Shown here in pieces: positions 2,962 to 60,404 of a DNA stretch of 64,000 bases. The notes below the pieces were generated by a model, which saw nothing but the letters and a program-made list of their open reading frames with translations, searched no databases and was not told the DNA's origin. The position numbers and the translations under genes were made by a program. Source of the stretch: Bacteroidales bacterium. Its GTDB lineage: Bacteria; Bacteroidota; Bacteroidia; Bacteroidales; P3. Positions within the stretch are counted from its first letter, which is position 1, and each line of letters starts with the position of its first letter. Where the stretch lies: the NCBI GenBank assembly GCA_017480245.1, contig JAFVBA010000010.1, positions 124,001 to 188,000 on the forward strand, read 5' to 3'.

Positions 2962-4641
2962 ATGGAAACCAACACTTTAAATACTGAAAAGGTACAAAAG
3001 AATTTTTTAGAGGAAATAATTGAGAGCGATTTGCAGGAGGGTCGTGTGCAATCCATACAAACGCGTTTTCCTCCAGAGCCTAACGGTTATCTTCACATAG
3101 GACATGCAAAAAGTATCTGTATTAATTTCGGTTTGGCAAAGAAATACGGAGGTAAAACCAACCTTCGTTTTGATGACACCAACCCTGTAAAAGAAGATAC
3201 CGAATACGTGGATAGTATTAAGGAAGATATTCATTGGCTTGGCTTTGATTGGGCTGAGGAACACTATGCTTCGGATTATTTCGAGCAACTTTACAATTGG
3301 GCTTGCGAACTTATAAAGAAAGGTTTGGCATATGTTGATGACCAAACTAACGAACAAATCCGCGAGAACAGAGGTACAGTCCAAAGTCCCGGTAAAAATT
3401 CTCCTTTCAGGGACAGAAGTGTTGAGGAAAACTTACATCTTTTTGAAGAGATGAGACAAGGTAAGTATCAGGACGGAGAAAAAACCCTTCGTGCGAAGAT
3501 TGATATGGCTCATCCTAATATGAATATGCGCGACCCTATAATGTACCGTATTATTCACACCTCACATCACCGTACGGGCAACAAATGGTGTATTTATCCT
3601 ATGTATGACTATGCCCATGGCGAAAGTGATTCCATCGAAAAGATAACTCATTCCATTTGTACGCTTGAATTTGACATCCACCGTCCGCTTTACGATTGGT
3701 TTATCAAATCCCTTGAAATTTATCCTTCACATCAATACGAATTTGCAAGACTTAACATTACCAATACCGTAATGAGTAAGCGAAAATTGTTACAATTGGT
3801 TAAGGAAGGCTATGTTGCCGGATGGGATGACCCGAGAATGCCGACTATTTGCGGATTCAGACGCCGTGGTTACACACCCGAAAGTATCAGAAAGTTCTGT
3901 GAAGATATCGGAGTGGCAAAACGCGACAACCTTATTGATTATTCTCGTTTGGAAAACGCACTTCGTGATGATTTGAACAAGAAAGCCGACAGGGTTATGG
4001 CAGTTCTGCATCCTGTTAAGTTGATTATTGACAACTATCCTGCAAATCAAACCGAGGAGTTGGACGCTGTGAATAATCCGGAGGACGAAAGCCGCGGCAA
4101 ACGCAAGATTTCTTTCTCCAATACCTTATATATAGAGCAGGAAGACTTTATGGAAAACGCTCCGAAGAAGTATTTCCGTATGACTGTGGGACAAGAGGTG
4201 CGTTTAAGGTATGCTTACATAGTTAAATGCACGGGTTGCGAGAAAGATGAGCAAGGTAACGTTACCGTTGTTCATTGTGAGTACGACCCTTTGACACGCG
4301 GCGGCGATACTCCTGACGGTAGAAAGATTAAAGGTACTATTCATTGGGTTGATGCTAATAATTGCATCGATGCAAAGGTAAATGTCTTTGACCGTTTGTT
4401 TAATACCGAAAAGCCTGACGAAGTTGAAGAAGGCAAAACCTTCCTTGACAATCTTAATCCTAATTCTCTAACAGTTTTAGAGGGATGTAAATTGGAGAGG
4501 TCCTTACAAAATGTAAAGCCTTTGGACAAATTCCAATTTGAAAGGTTGGGATACTTCAGTGTTGATTATGATTCTACGCCTGAAAACTTGATTTTCAACC
4601 GTACGACTACATTAAAAGATTCTTGGGCGAAGCAAAAATAA
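2962..4641 (+). CDS. glnS: Glutaminyl-tRNA synthetase
   Basis: Class I synthetase that charges tRNA-Gln directly with glutamine in the cytoplasm. The 559 residues include the HIGH-type signature in [17 protein letters not shown], the KMSKS-type loop in VMSKRKL, the GlnRS/GluRS catalytic core and the C-terminal beta-barrel anticodon-binding region. Length is close to the E. coli enzyme (about 554), and the sequence is GlnRS-like, not discriminating GluRS. Its presence implies the direct route to Gln-tRNA, not GatCAB transamidation alone. It is followed after 9 bases by a barrel-protein gene, so co-transcription is possible. Confidence 0.96.
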
Positions 4642-4650
4642 ACTGTTGAT

Positions 4651-5304
4651 ATGAAAAAAATAATTATTGCCGTATTATTGAGTGTTGTTTCTTTAACTGC
4701 GTTTTCTCAGGACAGACACCGTGCAGGCGACCAGCCGTATGATATTTTTGTATCCTTACGTCCTACCTATTATATATTGCAAGACAATTTCCTTGACAAT
4801 TATGATTGGGGGGCAGGGGGAAAAGTAAATATTGAATGGTTGTATCAAGAACTGCATTTGTCATGGGGAATTTCCGTAGGCTACAACCGCTATCAGCCGA
4901 AGTGGTTAAAATGGGATTTTGTGCCGACTAAACAACTTTTCGTCGCACAGGAAATTCCTATTATCTTGAATTTTAATTATTATCCGTTTGTTAATAAAGT
5001 TAAGCCCTACATTGGAGTCGGTCTTTCGGCAATGTGGGGAAAGTATGACTATTCTTTCTCCATTATGAAGAACAATTACACGACGGGATTGGAATCTAAT
5101 TTGGACAGATACTATTATCAAGAGTTTGAGATGGAAAGCGGATTCAAATTCGGCGTAATTCCTCACGTTGGATTGATGTTTTCTTTAGACCATAAGAATG
5201 GTTTTGGCTTTGAAGTGGGAATGGAGAGATATTTTTCTAACGGAAGAATGGAAAAACAGAACACTCTGAGCGGTACAATCTACTATACATATATTATTGA
5301 CTGA
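4651..5304 (+). CDS. Outer-membrane beta-barrel protein of unknown function
   Basis: A 217-residue protein with a clear signal peptide (MKKIIIAVLLSVVSLTAFSQ), so it is exported. The mature part is rich in alternating aromatic and glycine residues with many Tyr and Trp, for example YYPFVNKVKPYIGVGLSAMW, and ends in YYTYIID. This is the pattern of a small porin- or OmpW-like barrel (about eight strands). No specific ligand or pathway can be read from it. It begins 9 bases after glnS. Confidence 0.7.
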   Translation: MKKIIIAVLLSVVSLTAFSQDRHRAGDQPYDIFVSLRPTYYILQDNFLDNYDWGAGGKVNIEWLYQELHLSWGISVGYNRYQPKWLKWDFVPTKQLFVAQEIPIILNFNYYPFVNKVKPYIGVGLSAMWGKYDYSFSIMKNNYTTGLESNLDRYYYQEFEMESGFKFGVIPHVGLMFSLDHKNGFGFEVGMERYFSNGRMEKQNTLSGTIYYTYIID

Positions 5305-10407: not shown

Positions 10408-13400
10408 TTATTTCAAAATATCAAATTCAACAAAGAACACAGTTCCGATATTCTCCTTACTTTTGAAATAAATAGAAGCGTTGTAACTTTCAAGTATCGT
10501 TTTAACGATTGTAAGTCCTATGCCGCTGCCGTCAGTCTTTGTTGTAAATGAAGTATTGAAGATTTTATCAAAATTCTCTGCCTTTATACCGCAGCCGTTA
10601 TCCTCTATACTTACGATATGACGCAATTCATTTTGTTTGATTGCGATGTTAATTCTTCCGTCAGGCTTGTTATACAAAGATTGCAGCGCATTTTTTATCA
10701 AATTATTGAAGATACGGATAAACAGTGTCATTTCACCCAAAGTATAACAAGATTTTTTTTCTTCATATCTTATTTCAACGCCTTCAGTTGCCGAGAAAAG
10801 ATTGATAGCAGCCAAAATACAATCGTTCAAATCCACTTTATCTTTTTTAACTGAAGGTTTGCTGTAAGAATTCAGCTCTTGGGTTATCGTACTTATGCTT
10901 TCAATCTGAGAAATCAAAGAAGGAGCGATTTCATTAAACTTTTTATCAAAATCGGCAGGCTTTTCATTGTAAATTCTCTGCAAATACTGAATAGAAAGTT
11001 TCATCGGAGTTAAAGGATTCTTTATATCGTGGGCTACTTGTGCGGCCAATTCCCGCCAAGATGCCTGTCTTTCTTGATTCTTCAGCAAGATAGCGCTTTG
11101 TTCTATCTTTTCAACCATAAGATTATAAGATTTAATCAAATCACCCATCTCATCATCGGCTTTCCATTCGATTTTTTCGTTAGAAGTATTCACGTTAATT
11201 TTCGCCATCTGCCGTTTAACCAACTCAAGTGGCTTTGTAATTATATTACTTAGGAAAACAAAGATAATAACTGCCGCATTAACCAAGAAAAGAAACAAAT
11301 TAGCGAAATTATTTATCAAATTATTGATATTATCTTTCATTATTTTTTGTTGATTAATGAAAGGAATGTTTATATACAGCAATTTACCGCCCGAATAATC
11401 GGAAACAGTTACATAAGAAGCCAAAAAATCTCCGTTACATATCTTTTCTTTTTGATAAAACAGCGTATCTGGGTTGGTTCTCAGCATTTCAAAGGCAGGA
11501 TAATTCATTTTACGCGAAATAATACCTTTATTAAATATATCTTCTTGCGAACAAACGGCAAGATTTCCCAAAGTATCAAAAATATTTATGTCAGTAAGGA
11601 ATGTATTTGACAAATTAATCAACGCAATATCCGAAATATCTTCTCCTGAATCCAATATTTTTTCTATTTCAAGGGCAATACTCTCGGTTTTTTCCTTTAA
11701 AATGTTCAGATTACCCATATTATTCATATCAATTGTGCTTTTAACGGAAAAGAATCCTATGATAATCAAACTGACTGCGAAAGAACCGAGCAAAGACAGC
11801 AATATTTTGGATTTTATACTTAAAGTTTTTTTTCTGAAATTCGGAATTGCGTTAATCAAATGTTCAATTCCTAACAATATTATCAACATTAAAAACAAAA
11901 CCGACACAAAGAAGAAGATTTGGTTAAAGTTTTCATTCTCTAAACTCTCAACTTTAAACTTTAAACTCTCGTCTTCATCCAAGAAAAGAGAATAATTCAT
12001 ATTTTTATTAGTCTGTTTTTTCAAACATTCTGCGAAGATATAGAAATTATCTCCCTTATAAAAAAACATAGTCGGCAAAGTTTCTTCATCGGCTGCGGAT
12101 ATTCTGTTTTGAACATAAGAAAGAATATTCTCATATTTGTTTTTAGGTTGAACAATCATTGAATCCCTTTCATTAAACACCAAAACATTGGTATGATTAG
12201 CCGAAGAAAGCAAAGAAAGATAATATTTAGCGATATAACTCTCCGTTTCTTCGTAATTTTCCGCCTTTATCTTGGAAAGAATTAAAGAATCCTTAGTTAC
12301 ATTCTCCATTAAAATAGAGAAATTTTTTAAATCAGTGTTTAAAGTTGAAGGTTTAGTGTTTAGAGTTGAAAGTTTAGTGTCATTAAACTCTAAACTATCA
12401 ACCTTAAACTTTAAACTATACATATTAACAGCGAAACTAAGCCCTGCGATAAGCGTAATAATCCAAATAGTTACGAATTGCCTGATAATAATTTTTGGTT
12501 GGGAGTTTAAAGTTGAAAGTTTAGAGTTTAGAGTTGAGGGTTTAGGATTTTCATTCTCTGAACTATAAACTTTAAACCTTAAACTAAATTCAGTAATTAA
12601 ATAAACAAGAAATCCCGATAAGGCTACGGTGATAAAAATAAGTATATTATTGTAATTAATATCGGAAGTATAGAGTTTGAAAGCGAAATTGTCTATCTTA
12701 CTGCACAAAAACCACACAAAAACTGCATAAATAATATACAAAACTGCCAAGAAAATCCGTCTGAATGCTGCTTTTTTGAAAATAGTCTTGAATTTTGTTT
12801 CCAAACATCCCAAGTTTTTCTCCCAACATGGCAGTTTTTTCTCCGAACTTCCCAACTTATTATCCAAAAAACGCCGCTTTTTACTCCAAAAAACGCCGCT
12901 TTTTACACTAAAAAACGCCGTTTTTTGCATATTAACTCTTGATGTTTGGAAATTATCTTGGGAAGTTCGGAGATTATTTTGGAGTGTTTGGAAACTTTTT
13001 TCAGAGTGTTGTTTTTTATTTCTTGAGATAATGATATTTTTTTGCCATACAATACAGATAACTCCTAAGACAAACAGATTGATTAGCAACCATAAACGGA
13101 AAATAAACTTATCTTTTGCGCTCGCTTTAAGACATTCGGGCGAAACTTCCAAATATCCGACAGTTTTTCCTTTATATATTATAGGAAAATCGGTTTTGTA
13201 ATTGACTATCTCTATTTCTTTATCAAAATTAAAGGGCGGATTGAACTTGTTTTCGGCAAATCTATTCTCGTTTTTGTAATTGTATTTGATTAAACTTAGA
13301 TATATATCCGTCGTATCGCCGTGTTTTATGTTTTTTTTGAGATATACACCGTTTTTTGTCTCTATTATAATATTTGTATCGGTAAGTATATTCTGCGGTT

Positions 13401-13632
13401 TGGCAGAAACGTAATCCAAAACAAAAGAATTATCACCCCAAACGACTAATGAATCTTTTATAAAGGTATATTTCCCACCTGTTTTTTCTATTTCTTTGTA
13501 AGTTCGGGCAACTTGACGGGAAAATCTTTTATCTACATCGGAAGTTTTGCCCTGAGAAAAGAATTTCCATGCAAAACAACCCAAAAAAGATGCAACCAAA
13601 AGAATAAGAATTATTGATTTTTTTGTATTCAT
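10408..13632 (-). CDS. NtrY-like sensor histidine kinase with repeat-derived insertions
   Basis: A 1074-residue inner-membrane kinase. It has an N-terminal membrane helix, a periplasmic domain to about 175, several membrane helices (about 180-200, 290-345, 390-405, 570-590, 615-635), a second sensing region, a membrane helix near 780, HAMP, the phosphoacceptor segment AAQVAHDIKNPLTPMK (His about 868) and an HATPase domain with N box (NNLIKNALQSL), G1 (DNGCGI) and G2 (GSGIGLTIVK). The HDIKNPLTP form is typical of NtrY. No response regulator is adjacent. The gene carries a 187-bp palindromic array (residues about 214-276) and two 84-bp repeats (about 349-376 and 405-432), all kept open in frame in poorly conserved linkers. 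These add roughly 118 residues. Kinase assignment is sure; the ligand is unknown. Confidence 0.9.
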   Translation of the reverse strand: MNTKKSIILILLVASFLGCFAWKFFSQGKTSDVDKRFSRQVARTYKEIEKTGGKYTFIKDSLVVWGDNSFVLDYVSAKPQNILTDTNIIIETKNGVYLKKNIKHGDTTDIYLSLIKYNYKNENRFAENKFNPPFNFDKEIEIVNYKTDFPIIYKGKTVGYLEVSPECLKASAKDKFIFRLWLLINLFVLGVICIVWQKNIIISRNKKQHSEKSFQTLQNNLRTSQDNFQTSRVNMQKTAFFSVKSGVFWSKKRRFLDNKLGSSEKKLPCWEKNLGCLETKFKTIFKKAAFRRIFLAVLYIIYAVFVWFLCSKIDNFAFKLYTSDINYNNILIFITVALSGFLVYLITEFSLRFKVYSSENENPKPSTLNSKLSTLNSQPKIIIRQFVTIWIITLIAGLSFAVNMYSLKFKVDSLEFNDTKLSTLNTKPSTLNTDLKNFSILMENVTKDSLILSKIKAENYEETESYIAKYYLSLLSSANHTNVLVFNERDSMIVQPKNKYENILSYVQNRISAADEETLPTMFFYKGDNFYIFAECLKKQTNKNMNYSLFLDEDESLKFKVESLENENFNQIFFFVSVLFLMLIILLGIEHLINAIPNFRKKTLSIKSKILLSLLGSFAVSLIIIGFFSVKSTIDMNNMGNLNILKEKTESIALEIEKILDSGEDISDIALINLSNTFLTDINIFDTLGNLAVCSQEDIFNKGIISRKMNYPAFEMLRTNPDTLFYQKEKICNGDFLASYVTVSDYSGGKLLYINIPFINQQKIMKDNINNLINNFANLFLFLVNAAVIIFVFLSNIITKPLELVKRQMAKINVNTSNEKIEWKADDEMGDLIKSYNLMVEKIEQSAILLKNQERQASWRELAAQVAHDIKNPLTPMKLSIQYLQRIYNEKPADFDKKFNEIAPSLISQIESISTITQELNSYSKPSVKKDKVDLNDCILAAINLFSATEGVEIRYEEKKSCYTLGEMTLFIRIFNNLIKNALQSLYNKPDGRINIAIKQNELRHIVSIEDNGCGIKAENFDKIFNTSFTTKTDGSGIGLTIVKTILESYNASIYFKSKENIGTVFFVEFDILK
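12335..12418. repeat. 84-bp repeat of four 21-nt units inside the kinase gene
   Basis: Four consecutive 21-nt units at 12335-12355, 12356-12376, 12377-12397 and 12398-12418. The first two start GTGTTTA and the last two hold the same heptamers inverted (TTAAACTCTAAACTA). Total 84 nt equals 28 codons, so the insertion keeps the frame. In the kinase it encodes residues about 405-432, including the quasi-repeats FKVDSLEF and KLSTLNTKPSTLNT. Confidence 0.85.
12503..12586. repeat. Second 84-bp repeat of four 21-nt units inside the kinase gene
   Basis: Units at 12503-12523, 12524-12544, 12545-12565 and 12566-12586. The first two start GAGTTTA; the last carries the inverted heptamers. It has the same heptamer family as 2868-2948 and 12335-12418. 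It encodes kinase residues about 349-376, with the repeated peptide KPSTLNSKLSTLNS. Confidence 0.85.
12803..12989. repeat. 187-bp palindromic array inside the kinase gene
   Basis: Left arm: three 21-nt units at 12803-12823, 12824-12844 and 12845-12865, each ending in CC. Core: three palindromes AAAAAACGCCGCTTTTT (the last ending in GTTTTTT) centred at 12874, 12896 and 12918. Right arm: 21-nt units at 12927-12947, 12948-12968 and 12969-12989, then GG; these invert the left arm (for example CCAAACATC against GATGTTTGG). It is symmetric about 12896, which is also the centre of the 187-bp span. In the kinase it reads as seven-residue quasi-repeats such as FQTLQNN, LRTSQDN, FQTSRVN. Confidence 0.88.
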
Positions 13633-17012: not shown

Positions 17013-17052
17013 TTAAGGATTTTAATGTAATAGAAGACATTAAAATCCTTAA
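17013..17052. terminator. Bidirectional hairpin between cysS and the HU-like gene
   Basis: A perfect 16-bp stem: TTAAGGATTTTAATGT at 17013-17028 pairs with 17037-17052 around an 8-base loop. It sits between convergent genes and overlaps the HU-like stop codon. The T-run is short, so efficiency is uncertain. Confidence 0.75.
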
Positions 17053-17477
17053 GTTTTGGAAATTTCCTCTTCTTTTACGAAATTAACCTTATTCAAATCG
17101 ACAAAATGCAATGGTTCTTCGTTGAGAGTTTGTAACAATTCACGGTCGGGACGAAACTTCACATTAACTTTCTTAATGTCGCGGAAGGTCAAATCTTCCT
17201 CATTTTCCTTAGAATCCACCGTCAGCGAAAGAGAAAATGTCCCGATATGGTCAAGTTTAACGCTTTGGCCGTTGCGCAGTAACTGCATAAGATTCCAACC
17301 TATCTGTTGAAGCGCCAACTCCGTTTCTCCGACCGCCAGAGTTGAACCTTTGTTAATACGCTTCGCCAATTCGCGCGTATAAACTTTCTCCTGCGGTAAC
17401 ATTCTGTAGAAAAACCGCTCTTGTTTCTTACCGTTGGCATTTATTCTCTGTTTAACTTTATAATAAGGTATAGGCAT
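17049..17477 (-). CDS. HU-HIG family DNA-binding protein
   Basis: A 142-residue protein of the Bacteroidota HU-like family (DNA-binding histone-like, HIGH/HIG domain). The N-terminal half (YYKVKQRINANGKKQERFFY, then TRELAKRINKGSTLAVGE) and the beta-arm region (HIGTFSLSLTV with KKVNVKFRPDRELL) match these proteins, which are longer than canonical HU (about 90 residues). The role is presumably nucleoid structuring. The C-terminal 20 residues are a short acidic-basic tail. It is a lone gene. Confidence 0.85.
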   Translation of the reverse strand: MPIPYYKVKQRINANGKKQERFFYRMLPQEKVYTRELAKRINKGSTLAVGETELALQQIGWNLMQLLRNGQSVKLDHIGTFSLSLTVDSKENEEDLTFRDIKKVNVKFRPDRELLQTLNEEPLHFVDLNKVNFVKEEEISKT

Positions 17478-17548: not shown

Positions 17549-17818
17549 AATTGCTGTCTTCTGCGGAAAAATCTGTACCGACATTGAAAGATTACGTACC
17601 AATATAGAACGCAAAGCCGACAATTTTATTATAAAAAACGGTTTTTTCAATTTGAAAAAACGGTTTTTTTGATGCAAATAAACGGGTTTTTTTAATCAAA
17701 AAAACGGGTTTTTAAATTAACTTTGTCGGCAAATAATTACGAATTGACGGCAAATAATTGAAAACCGTCGGCAAAAAATCCGTTCCCGACAACAAAAAAT
17801 CGGCGGGAATAAGAAATT
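17549..17818. repeat. Large palindromic array, 4-4-4 form
   Basis: Core: four palindromes of the form A6-7 CGG T6-7 centred at 17640, 17662, 17684 and 17706, exactly 22 nt apart. Right arm: 21-nt units starting AAAT or AAT at 17714, 17735, 17756, 17777 and 17798, most carrying CGGC. Left arm: 21-nt units at 17549, 17570, 17591 and 17612 carrying the inverted motif (ACCGAC, GCCGAC). The span 17549-17797 is symmetric about 17673, which is midway between the two central palindromes. It fills most of the 449-bp gap before the peptidase gene. Confidence 0.85.
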
Positions 17819-35865: not shown

Positions 35866-35909
35866 GATGCCTTATTGCAAAAAAATGACGCTTTAAGGCA
35901 TCTTTTTTC
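35866..35909 (+). terminator. Terminator-like hairpin after the DUF362 gene
   Basis: GATGCCTTA (35866-35874) pairs with TAAGGCATC (35894-35902), followed by a run of six T. It lies within the left arm of the 187-bp array. Confidence 0.65.
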
Positions 35910-36055
35910 TGCCCCTTGCGAAAAGAATTTGAAAAAAACTCTTTTTTTACCTCAAAAAAACTGTTTTTTCTGAATAAAAAAACTCTTTTTTTGAAAATAA
36001 TTTGCGAAAGGGCGGCGGCAAGATGTCCGAAGGCGACGAAATAAACGAAAAAGGC
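35869..36055. repeat. 187-bp palindromic array, copy in the gap before the Phd-like gene
   Basis: Left arm: three 21-nt units starting GCC, GCT, GCC at 35869, 35890 and 35911. Core: AAAAAAACTCTTTTTTT-type palindromes centred at 35940, 35962 and 35984. Right arm: three 21-nt units, each ending GGC, at 35993-36013, 36014-36034 and 36035-36055. The span is exactly symmetric about 35962. Outer arms carry GCCTT against AAGGC. Confidence 0.93.
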
Positions 36056-36121: not shown

Positions 36122-36152
36122 TTTGTTATTAAGTCAGGAATTTGTAATTTTG
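36122..36152 (+). promoter_or_regulatory. Promoter of the Phd-like gene
   Basis: TTTG at 36122-36125 and TAATTTTG at 36145-36152, 19 bases apart; start codon at 36180. Confidence 0.65.
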
Positions 36153-36366: not shown

Positions 36367-37089
36367 ATGAAAATAAAATTATCGGATAATATTTGGTTTA
36401 GGTGTGCAGTTGTTTCTGCCGTTTTTATATTGTTGAATATAATTTTATGGTATTTTGACGAATTTTTAGGATTAAGTTTGACGTTTTTACTATTATTTTT
36501 GACAATTCCTGCAACTGTTATCAGTATTATTGCTCTTTGTCAGTCTTTTTCCTTTAAAACACACAGGCATACGGCAGTTTTTTCTCTTAATATGTTGAAT
36601 ATTATTCTTATTGCAGTATTTTACTTTGCAATATTGCCGCACCGTGATTGCGATGAGTACATTATGGAGGATAATTACACAAAGCATTATGCAGAAATGT
36701 CGGAATTGAAGAATTATTTCAAAAATGCAATTGACAGAAACAAATCCGTAAGAATGGAATGGTCGTTAAAATACAATACAAAGATAAAAGATTATGATTC
36801 ATTGGGCTTAACAAAACAAGAAGTTAAGACAATAAAGAAGAAATTACGCAAAATAAACTGCCAAGGTATAGAAGGTGGAAAACATAATGTAAAGATATTG
36901 TTTAAAAGAGTTGATTCTGGAGTTTATTATTACAATTTAAGTGATTCTGTCTTTGATTTGCAACAGATAAATAAGATAAAAAAGGATTGCAGTAGCATAT
37001 TGCTTAACGACAGTGTGTATTTCTCCCGAGTTGGTGGCGCAATAGGAAATTATTGCTTTGAAAATAAGGCGGAGTTTGAGAAAAGATAG
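36367..37089 (+). CDS. Membrane protein of unknown function, copy 1 of a tandem pair
   Basis: A 240-residue protein with three predicted membrane helices (about 12-30, 38-58, 72-92) and a soluble C-terminal domain of about 140 residues. The segments ILWYFDEFLG, CQSFSFKT and NDSVYFSRVGGAIG are shared with the next gene, so the two are tandem duplicates. I do not recognise the family. It starts 4 bases after the Phd-like gene, which implies translational coupling. Confidence 0.7.
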   Translation: MKIKLSDNIWFRCAVVSAVFILLNIILWYFDEFLGLSLTFLLLFLTIPATVISIIALCQSFSFKTHRHTAVFSLNMLNIILIAVFYFAILPHRDCDEYIMEDNYTKHYAEMSELKNYFKNAIDRNKSVRMEWSLKYNTKIKDYDSLGLTKQEVKTIKKKLRKINCQGIEGGKHNVKILFKRVDSGVYYYNLSDSVFDLQQINKIKKDCSSILLNDSVYFSRVGGAIGNYCFENKAEFEKR

Positions 37090-51930: not shown

Positions 51931-53220
51931 CTATTCGCAGTAAAGATTTACTATATTTTGGATTGATTTGGTGCAGACAGGACAAAACGGAGTCAAATCT
52001 CGCATCATGCAATGCAGATAAGGACGGTAAAATCCTTTGGAAATATAACTTGCACCCTCAAAAACCCCGACTTTGTTGCTGTATTCCTCCGTTTGAGGTG
52101 TCGGAATCGGAGTGTCTTTGTCTATCATATCGCCCCATTTCTTAGAAAAATCAACTAACGTTGTAACATTATCTTCGTATGGCTCAACTTTAGAAGAAGT
52201 AACCCCTGCCTGAGAATCATTTTCTGCGTATTCATCACCCAAACCAGCGAAACTATGGGAAAATTCATGCACAATAACTTCTTTACTCTTCTCTCCCATA
52301 TAACAAGTTGCGTAATAATTGTAAATACCTCCGCCTCCGTATGTGTCAGAGTTACAAACCATGATAATAGCATCGCAAGGCACTCTGTCAATAACGTCAT
52401 ACACGTCCCACAAGTTGCGTGTCATTATGTAGCGTGGCGAACCGAATGTATTATAAACTACTCCCAAATCACTGTCTTTTACTTTGGAATCTTTCAAACC
52501 GCCTATTCCGCTTTCCTTTGCGTATCTTTCCACTGCCGTTATCTGAATTTTGCCCTTTAAACTCTTGTAAGGTTCTTCGGAAAACATATATCCTGACATT
52601 TTCTGCAAATCCTGCATCATTTTTTCCCTATCTTCCAAGGTATAACCAACAGGAATCAAAACCAAATCCACACGTTTGTCAATTTCCCTGCCTGTCTCGT
52701 TCAACGTTATTATATGCGGTACAGATGGTTTGGCTTGTTTGGAAAAGAAATCTAAAGGTCGGATTTCGTTTTTGTCAATTCCGTAACGCACGACCTCTTT
52801 AAAATTATTTACGCTGTCGCGTACCGAAAACGCTATCTCAATTTCAACGTCCTCTTTTGGACAAGGAACGATTATCACCTCTTCAAAGTTGCCGCACATC
52901 CGACTTGCTTCGTCCATTGAGAGCCATTCGTTAAACAAAGAGGAAACTCCTTTGGAGAAAATCAACTTCTTGGTGTTTTTATCGTATAAACTGATAAGGT
53001 AAGCCCCGTTGTCAGTCCGGTCAATCAAGTTTTTATGGCTGCCCGAATAGAAAGGAATTTCTTTCATTGCCTCAATTGTGAAATAATCCACGCCCTGACG
53101 TCCCGAATGAGAGTAATCAATTCTCAAACCCTTGTTTTCAAAATATTTATCCCACTGCGCAAAACTTACAACGGGCAAGATGCTTAAAGCAATCAACAAG
53201 ATATTTCTTACAATTTTCAT
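51931..53220 (-). CDS. M64 family metallopeptidase
   Basis: A 429-residue exported protease. The signal peptide is MKIVRNILLIALSILPVVSF and the zinc site is the HExxH motif in HEFSHSFAGLGDEY. The C-terminal part (CMMRDLTPFCPVC) is also conserved in the M64 (IgA peptidase-like) family. Members are zinc endopeptidases of the envelope or secreted fraction; substrates vary, and the IgA specificity of the founding enzyme must not be assumed. The gene follows polA upstream on the minus strand and has a promoter at 53238-53268. Confidence 0.9.
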   Translation of the reverse strand: MKIVRNILLIALSILPVVSFAQWDKYFENKGLRIDYSHSGRQGVDYFTIEAMKEIPFYSGSHKNLIDRTDNGAYLISLYDKNTKKLIFSKGVSSLFNEWLSMDEASRMCGNFEEVIIVPCPKEDVEIEIAFSVRDSVNNFKEVVRYGIDKNEIRPLDFFSKQAKPSVPHIITLNETGREIDKRVDLVLIPVGYTLEDREKMMQDLQKMSGYMFSEEPYKSLKGKIQITAVERYAKESGIGGLKDSKVKDSDLGVVYNTFGSPRYIMTRNLWDVYDVIDRVPCDAIIMVCNSDTYGGGGIYNYYATCYMGEKSKEVIVHEFSHSFAGLGDEYAENDSQAGVTSSKVEPYEDNVTTLVDFSKKWGDMIDKDTPIPTPQTEEYSNKVGVFEGASYISKGFYRPYLHCMMRDLTPFCPVCTKSIQNIVNLYCE

Positions 53221-53237: not shown

Positions 53238-53268
53238 CAAAATTACGCTTATTTATTCACATCGCAAA
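53238..53268 (-). promoter_or_regulatory. M64 peptidase promoter
   Basis: Minus strand: TAATTTTG at 53238-53245 and TTTG at 53265-53268 (seen as CAAAATTA and CAAA), spacing 19. Confidence 0.65.
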
Positions 53269-53573
53269 AAATATTTTTGTTATTGTATAAAAATCAATGT
53301 TGTTTTCTTTGATGCCCTTTTTGATAAAAATAACGCCTTAGGTGATAACTCTGCCGCCCTTTGCGGAAAGAATTTGAAAAAAAGAGTTTTTTTACCTCAA
53401 AAAAAGAGTTTTTTTAGATAGAAAAAAGAGTTTTTTTTAAAATTTCATCGCAAAGGGCGGCGCAGTGATGGCAAAAAGCGGTGAATTTATCTGAAAGGGC
53501 AGGGTTGAGGTGAGTAAAAATTAAGGTGAATAGCGTAAATAAGTCGGTGAAATAAAAAAATATTTATAAAAAT
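53269..53573. other. Gap between divergent promoters, mostly a 187-bp array
   Basis: No gene is seen. The array at 53314-53500 fills most of this stretch between the M64 peptidase promoter and the tnaA promoter, so it cannot be a simple 3' terminator for either. Confidence 0.6.
53314..53500. repeat. 187-bp palindromic array between tnaA and the M64 gene
   Basis: Left arm: 21-nt units each starting GCC at 53314, 53335 and 53356. Core: AAAAAAAGAGTTTTTTT-type palindromes centred at 53385, 53407 and 53429. Right arm units end GGC, AGC and GGC at 53458, 53479 and 53500. Perfect 13-bp inner inverted repeat GCCGCCCTTTGCG (53353-53365) with 53449-53461. It is symmetric about 53407. Confidence 0.93.
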
Positions 53574-53604
53574 TTTGTCCGTATCGTTTTCTTTTGTAAT
53601 TTTG
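53574..53604 (+). promoter_or_regulatory. tnaA operon promoter
   Basis: TTTG at 53574-53577 and TAATTTTG at 53597-53604, spacing 19. Transcription would start near 53610, before the leader ORF. Confidence 0.75.
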
Positions 53605-53814: not shown

Positions 53815-55191
53815 ATGGAATTACCATTCGCAGAAGCGTGGAAAATTAAGATGGTTGAGCCATTAAAAAAATCCACAAGAGAACAAAGAGAACAATGGTT
53901 GAAAGAAGCTCATTACAATGTATTTCAACTTAAAGCAGAACAGGTTTATATTGACCTTTTGACAGATTCCGGTACGGGTGCAATGTCTCAAGGACAGTGG
54001 TCGGCAATGATGTTGGGCGATGAGTCTTACGCAGGTGCAACTTCATTCTACAAATTTGAAGAAACCGTAAAACGTATCTTCGGTATGGATTACGTTATTC
54101 CGACACACCAAGGACGTGCAGCAGAGAACGTATTGTTTTCTTACCTTGTAAAAGCAGGAAACGTTATCCCTGGTAACGCACATTTCGACACAACTAAAGG
54201 ACATATAGAATCACGTAAAGCATTTGCTATTGACGTTACTATTCCTGAGGCAAACGACACTCAACTTGAACTTCCTTTCAAAGGAAACGTGTCAATAGAA
54301 CTTTTAACTAAGGTTTTGGAAGAAAACAAAGGCAATGTACCTTTCATGGTTTTGACTGTAACTAACAATACTAAGGGCGGACAACCTGTAAGTATGCAAA
54401 ACATAAAAGAAACTTGCGAATTGTGCCACAAATACGGCGTACCTGTTGTAATGGATTCCGCACGTTTTGCAGAGAATGCTTACTTTATCAAAACAAGAGA
54501 AGAAGGCTACAAAGACAAAACTATTAAGGAAATAGTAAAAGAGATGTATTCTTATGTAGATATGGCAACCATGTCTTGCAAGAAGGATGCTATCGTTAAT
54601 ATGGGCGGATTCATCGCAACGAGAAATAAAGAAGTTTATGAAGGATGTAAATTGTTCTGCATTCCTTTTGAAGGCTATATCACTTACGGTGGATTGAACG
54701 GAAGAGATTTGAATGCTATCGCAGTAGGTTTGGAAGAAAATACTGAGTTTGATATGCTTGAAACCCGTATTAAGCAAGTTGAGTACTTAGCAAAGAAACT
54801 TGACGAGTACGGAATCCCATATCAAAGACCTGCAGGCGGACATGCAATCTTTGTTGATGCAGATAAAGTTCTTGACCAGATACCAAAAGAAGAATTTCCT
54901 GGCCAAACATTGACCTGTGAGTTGTATTTGGAGAGCGGAGTACGTGCTTGCGAAATCGGATATATGCTTGCAGACCGCGACCCTGTAACAAGAGAAAACC
55001 GTTTCGGCGGATTGGATTTGTTACGTTTGTGCATACCAAGACGTGTTTATACAAACAATCACATGGATGTCATTGCAGCAGCGTTAAAGAACGTTTATGA
55101 CCGCAGACATGAGATAAAACGTGGTGTAGAAATCACTTGGGAAGCACCTTTGATGAGACACTTCACTGTACAATTGAAAAGATTAGGCTAA
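53815..55191 (+). CDS. tnaA: Tryptophanase
   Basis: PLP-dependent lyase that splits tryptophan into indole, pyruvate and ammonia. The 458 residues match the TnaA/tyrosine phenol-lyase family; the PLP lysine lies in MSCKKDAIVNMGG. The position that in tyrosine phenol-lyase is an arginine binding the phenol (ME-R-G) here reads ACEIGYMLADRDP, as in tryptophanases, so tryptophanase is preferred. A leader ORF precedes it and a terminator follows (55235-55276). No tryptophan permease is adjacent. Confidence 0.94.
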   Translation: MELPFAEAWKIKMVEPLKKSTREQREQWLKEAHYNVFQLKAEQVYIDLLTDSGTGAMSQGQWSAMMLGDESYAGATSFYKFEETVKRIFGMDYVIPTHQGRAAENVLFSYLVKAGNVIPGNAHFDTTKGHIESRKAFAIDVTIPEANDTQLELPFKGNVSIELLTKVLEENKGNVPFMVLTVTNNTKGGQPVSMQNIKETCELCHKYGVPVVMDSARFAENAYFIKTREEGYKDKTIKEIVKEMYSYVDMATMSCKKDAIVNMGGFIATRNKEVYEGCKLFCIPFEGYITYGGLNGRDLNAIAVGLEENTEFDMLETRIKQVEYLAKKLDEYGIPYQRPAGGHAIFVDADKVLDQIPKEEFPGQTLTCELYLESGVRACEIGYMLADRDPVTRENRFGGLDLLRLCIPRRVYTNNHMDVIAAALKNVYDRRHEIKRGVEITWEAPLMRHFTVQLKRLG

Positions 55192-60217: not shown

Positions 60218-60404
60218 GCCTTTCGGCTGTTCTTTTCTGCCTTTTGCTTTCTTACCGCCGCCCTTTGCGAAGAAATTTTGAAAAAAACTCTTTTTTTTAC
60301 CAGAAAAAACTGTTTTTTTATATCAAAAAAACTCTTTTTTGGGAATTTTCTTGCGAAAGGGCGGAAGAATATTCCGTTAAGGCGTCATTGTTTCTTCATT
60401 GGGC
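60218..60404. repeat. 187-bp palindromic array reaching into rluD
   Basis: Left arm: GCC-starting 21-nt units at 60218, 60239 and 60260. Core: AAAAAAACTCTTTTTTT-type palindromes centred at 60289, 60311 and 60333. Right arm: units ending GGC at 60362, 60383 and 60404. Symmetric about 60311. The last 28 bases (60377-60404) are coding sequence of rluD, encoding its final residues. Confidence 0.92.

Follow-up and report, generated by a model that had tools for sequence, protein, structure and literature searches.

Bacterial dispersed palindromic repeats are mostly read as selfish debris or as features of mRNA and 3' ends. Repetitive extragenic palindromes (REP) and bacterial interspersed mosaic elements (BIME) are dispersed extragenic sequences of this kind, BIMEs combining palindromes with a bending site; phased A-tract upstream elements, which form curved DNA, and helix-face-dependent activator sites are also known. 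Here we describe 187-nt arrays of palindromes and inverted units in a 64,000-nt stretch of a rumen Bacteroidales genome, hereafter the window (assembly GCA_017480245.1, contig JAFVBA010000010.1, positions 124,001 to 188,000), with the array at 35869..36055 as the main subject. The arrays probably are dispersed, fixed-architecture upstream modules of promoter control, a repeat family whose helical register links it to predicted promoters in three species, at a spacing that is largely kept, which suggests an undescribed genome-wide way of promoter control.

The arrays are dispersed extragenic palindromes like REP and BIME but are built of 21-22-nt units in a fixed nine-part order and mostly face gene starts. 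A REP identity is not favoured, since the REP-associated transposase RAYT (Y1_Tnp, PF01797) was found in 0 of 14 genomes of the genus, the positive control being found in 5 of 14 named genomes. Like curved-DNA upstream elements and activator sites, the arrays hold A-tracts in helical register with the promoter; unlike these, they are one standard module with separate GC-starting units, present dozens to hundreds of times beside promoters, at distances that vary but approximate whole turns.

The closest published element, judged from the portions of PMC4596501 that describe it, is the BrickBuilt miniature inverted-repeat transposable element (MITE) of Porphyromonas gingivalis, likewise dispersed in the Bacteroidales, built of ~22-23-nt repeats and intergenic, as most of the arrays here appear to be. 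In those portions BrickBuilt has 1 to 22.8 direct 23-nt repeats, which expand and contract between strains, and a leader and tail bearing terminal inverted repeats of IS5 type (PMC4596501). The main family here is unlike that description in its 3+3+3 layout, palindromic cores, inverted unit arms and ~33-190 copies, and its arrays do not show the variable direct-repeat number given there (PMC4596501). Apart from this likeness in style no named repeat family was identified, in agreement with the initial annotation, and no description of the element was recognised in the open-licence PMC literature.

Architecture of the module

Four 187-nt loci had been proposed in the window, each with three cores at mid-span whose centres are 22 nt apart, and all four were confirmed:

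35869..36055, no strand: array 2, main array of the study
35869-35889, 35890-35910, 35911-35931: left units of array 2
35932-35948, 35954-35970, 35976-35992: cores of array 2
35993-36013, 36014-36034, 36035-36055: inverted units of array 2
53314..53500, no strand: array 3, between divergent genes for an M64 peptidase (-) and a beta-eliminating lyase (+)
60218..60404, no strand: array 4, between a pseudouridine synthase gene and gldB
12803..12989, no strand: array 1, of a different subfamily with CGCCG centres, inside a sensor kinase gene

The nine parts of the module are three ~21-nt units that start with GC, three A/T palindromes spaced at 22 nt and three units in inverted orientation. In the main family the unit starts, GC(C), lie at -93, -72 and -51 and are mirrored at +51, +72 and +93, and the cores (A6-7 N3-5 T6-7) lie at -22, 0 and +22 with 5-nt linkers. 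The set analysed comprised 95 high-scoring arrays, 31 of the window genome and 64 from stretches of the genomes RGIG9295 and RGIG8857; arrays with fewer than 33 of 36 core letters were excluded, 6 of 70 pattern-matched arrays were omitted as duplicates or as lying near stretch ends, and the variant arrays at window 12896, window 17684 and L087:4001 were omitted from most statistics. GC occupied the unit starts in 24-28 of the 28 arrays scored in the window genome and in 51-60 of the 64 from RGIG9295, and all 95 arrays showed a 10.5-bp phase of their A-tracts by comparison with block-shuffled sequence.

The constant length first claimed was found in two genomes (187 nt in the window genome and RGIG9295) but not in the congener G013, where the module has 189 nt. 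Core centres were CTC/CAG/CTG/GAG in the window genome, CTG, CCC, GGG, CAG and CTA in RGIG9295, and ATAGG, TCACA, TCAGA and CCACA in G013. A fourth core at +-44 or +-66 occurred in 0 of 92 main-family arrays, which had been preselected for three cores; three cores were also present in all 45 GCC-arm arrays of G013, and the variant families have three or four. Positional information drops toward background past the third unit, and a conserved leader or tail is not apparent. A second family in G013 (8 of 53 arrays) combines single units of GCCGATTCAG type with three or four cores, whose centres read CCTGC/AGTGG; the centre letters of the two families are almost separate, with 4 CCTGC and 1 AGTGG cores within the GCC-arm set.

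The spans had been described as symmetric to the base. Their layout is indeed mirrored, but not every base is, self reverse-complement identity being 126, 114, 126 and 102 of 187 for the four spans in coordinate order. The three intergenic spans exceed shuffled sequence in this respect (means 48-51, maximum 92). This symmetry derives mainly from how the family is built, as with inverted protein sites.

Helical register with promoters and turnover at orthologous sites

In the window genome, RGIG9295 and G013 the arrays are in helical register with predicted promoter -7 boxes (TAnnTTTG), the helix-face relation of an upstream activating or operator array. Within the window the following boxes accompany arrays 2 and 3:

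36145..36152, + strand: outward -7 box TAnnTTTG, 89 nt from the array 2 edge, upstream of open reading frame (ORF) 36367-37089; 2.4 nt off mean phase
53597..53604, + strand: outward -7 box, 96 nt from the array 3 edge, upstream of ORF 53815-55191; -1.2 nt off mean phase
53238..53245, - strand: outward -7 box, 68 nt from the array 3 edge, upstream of ORF 51931-53220; 2.4 nt off mean phase

By gene context, 36 of the 95 arrays were tandem, 40 divergent and 6 convergent, and 6 of 45 arrays in G013 lay between convergent genes. Divergent sites exceeded the expectation from intergenic length both in RGIG9295 (25 of 54 seen, 17.8 expected) and in the window genome (14 of 26 seen, 7.9 expected). Of 162 array sides, 48 faced a gene 3' end (33 of 90 in G013); the 162 leave out 11 of 92 arrays that did not have called genes flanking them on both sides. 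Genes were predicted with a simple script that takes the longest ORF, and on these calls an ORF of at least 80 aa overlapped 26 of 95 arrays; with overlapping ORFs below 160 aa set aside, such overlap was left in 4 of 95, the kinase copy included, and 9 were situated at the edges of stretches. The genes downstream of the arrays were mixed in kind, and a regulon is not favoured.

At least ten array positions next to the same gene are common to RGIG9295 and the window genome. The ten pairs were hand-picked; in five of them the genes on both sides correspond, in the other five the gene on one side, and the comparison covered 64 array-bearing stretches (63 of RGIG9295, 1 of RGIG8857), so that it shows sharing and gives no absence rate. 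The pseudouridine synthase-gldB site carries an array in the window genome, G001 (taken to be RGIG9295) and G013, and carries none in seven congeners with the same upstream gene, as read by eye. In G010, a ~30-nt inverted repeat (GACGACGCCTATAGGAATATAGTTGTCGTC), also seen by eye on L125, bounds a few hundred nt before gldB and is perhaps a MITE.

Among the ten pairs, identity was kept in the cores (0.94) and the unit GC(C) (0.89) and lost in the linkers (0.34) and outer spacers (0.41). Arm identity was 0.516 for these pairs, little above the 0.493 of non-orthologous cross-species comparisons, and 0.573 and 0.533 within species; unit letters are species-specific. Linker identity was 0.316 for own-own and 0.327 for cross-species comparisons, and 0.383 among the RGIG9295 linkers, which frequently read GACTC, ACCCT or AGGGT. 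Gene conversion is not favoured as the source of the species consensus, because the linkers of the window genome are not homogenised; those of RGIG9295 are more alike. Spacing to the -7 boxes was largely kept at orthologous sites while the intervening DNA diverged. The pair L079:12933/L011 (boxes 24/66) was left out of this comparison because in the window genome an extra gene separates the array from its matching gene; the L075/L072 flank was likewise left out.

From the observed architecture, copy number, position, phasing and orthologous spacing we infer a protein, its binding, a bend and an effect on transcription. The three phased A-tract/T-tract palindromes would form a bent centre, flanked on each side by three GC-starting ~21-nt units, which at their spacing of two helical turns are candidate sites for a sequence-specific protein or for a protein with a bending partner. 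Such a complex would occupy a single face of the helix, in phase with the -7 box of the adjacent promoter (of both promoters at divergent genes), and would activate or otherwise modulate it in the manner of an upstream activating sequence. The side-by-side binding on bent DNA put forward in the initial annotation gains indirect support from A-tract phasing, species-specific units beside linkers that are not homogenised, and -7 box register. Each species has a distinct set of unit and centre letters at positions that are orthologous in part, which is what sites tracking a protein that changes would show.

Array-free promoters of RGIG9295, the window genome and G010 also show A-tracts or GC phased at ~10.5-11 bp upstream of the -7 box, and the arrays may be an elaborate form of the ordinary phased AT/GC upstream pattern of the clade. 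A wider proposal is possible but tentative, namely a bacterial enhancer-like system in which a standard nine-site nucleoprotein module stands at scores of unrelated promoters, the protein-DNA code turns over between species with sites and helical spacing kept, several module families that differ in centre letters or in having three or four cores share a genome, and HU-HIG proteins are candidate factors. If true, promoter control by these modules would form a genome-wide layer in a rumen clade, and would offer a direct route to study the joint change in specificity of one protein and scores of sites.

Copy number, spread and alternative explanations

A genome scan of the kind proposed in the initial annotation found further copies: a strict two-core pattern gave 60 matches in the window genome and its reversed control 0. 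Looser two-core patterns have no such control, as their reversed form fits inside real arrays. By pattern there are ~33 modules in the window genome (67 two-core matches; 69.6% complete), ~70-80 in RGIG9295 (147 strict and 164 loose two-core matches) and ~190 in G013 (376 matches). The loose pattern gave 7 matches in G002, 3 in G006 and 2 in G012 and none in eight other congeners, G009 having one strict match; related forms whose centres differ are present elsewhere in the same family, in other genera, and degenerate forms in G010. The exact three-core A6N3T6 pattern, searched in contigs of 84,980 species, was found only in RGIG9295 and one RGIG8857 contig, in a search that possibly excluded the records of the window genome itself and whose pattern misfits the five-letter centres of G013. 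It had no match in viral contigs, and two array stretches, one compared with plasmids and the other with phages, had none there. The RGIG8857 array (L037) is identical over 211 nt to an RGIG9295 array (L063), flanking genes also matching; this contig is possibly mis-binned.

In an unrooted two-protein tree of 13 congeners, species rich in arrays are interleaved with species poor in them, a pattern compatible with an ancestor that had arrays and later losses, or with repeated gain. G002 has related elements with GCCCC/CCACC centres at three unrelated sites (L143, L144, and L145 near position 5020); the two comparisons made gave 92% (278 nt) and 87% (272 nt) identity, a sign of recent spread.

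This spread in G002, the interleaved tree, the fixed length in many copies and the in-frame kinase copy described below would all suit non-autonomous, MITE-like mobile passengers whose upstream position marks where insertion is tolerated. We consider this unlikely: the highest pairwise identity among the arrays compared was 0.77 in the window genome and 0.80 in RGIG9295, so that no recent copies were seen there; the architecture is kept at the ten shared sites with linkers near saturation; the arrays are helically phased with promoters at conserved spacing; and RAYT, the transposase searched for, is absent from all 14 congeners.

Still less readily can the arrays be taken for BIME-like sites that organise the nucleoid or insulate supercoils, mainly between divergent promoters, with the promoter register as a by-product of packaging. 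The divergent excess, the mixed neighbour genes and the 10.5-11 bp pattern at ordinary promoters accord with such a role, but tandem sites are nearly as frequent as divergent ones and the spacing to -7 boxes is kept at orthologous sites.

The initial annotation had also raised an RNA hairpin array, to be checked by compensatory changes between arms. Against shuffled pairs, left and right arms showed no excess likeness in unit 1 (z -0.30, 0.14 and -1.35 for RGIG9295, the window genome and G013) or unit 3 (z -0.23, -1.17 and -1.90, same order) and a weak excess in unit 2 (z 1.44, 2.14 and 1.14), and the two linkers of one copy were less alike than shuffled (z -5.1 and -3.1; -1.8 in G013, not significant). 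Transcribed hairpins or intrinsic terminators are thus very improbable, for although the RNA fold of the one array tested beats shuffles (z -3.9) and unit 2 leans that way, units 1 and 3 do not, convergent sites are few, most sides are not at 3' ends and Rfam gave no match in the 64-kb window.

Variant arrays, HU-HIG genes and the kinase copy

One further array in the window, absent from the initial annotation, adjoins a gene for a DNA-binding protein:

17616..17772 (ends approximate), no strand: variant array, between the HU-HIG gene and a divergent gene
17049..17477, - strand: HU-HIG DNA-binding protein gene (PF18291), adjoining the variant array

The variant array has four A/T cores, centred near 17640, 17662, 17684 and 17706, with a single GCCGAC-type unit to their left and three units of G(T/A)CGGC type to their right. 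Two other such pairs occur in the window genome (L087:4186-4701 with the array at 4001; L225:1672-2085 with an array at ~1500), so that an HU-HIG gene adjoins 3 of its 6 known intergenic variant arrays; the L225 array came to light in a survey of the surroundings of HU-HIG genes, in which 1 of 9 fetched loci carried an array. An array-like element lies near 3 of the 11 HU-HIG loci fetched from G013. The number of HU copies does not track that of arrays (HU-HIG matches: 4 in G001, 30 in G002) and was rejected as a correlate.

Array 1 encodes residues 215-277 of an in-frame insert in a histidine kinase with HisKA and HATPase domains (HAMP just under cut-off). The insert lies between two hydrophobic stretches and is absent from eight aligned congeners, which have a much shorter loop. 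No exact -7 box lies within 330 nt of array 1, which is probably a misplaced copy of another subfamily. Heptad-like low-complexity stretches of the kinase gene (window 10408-13632; STLNSKLSTLNSQP and similar) resemble translated 21-nt repeats.
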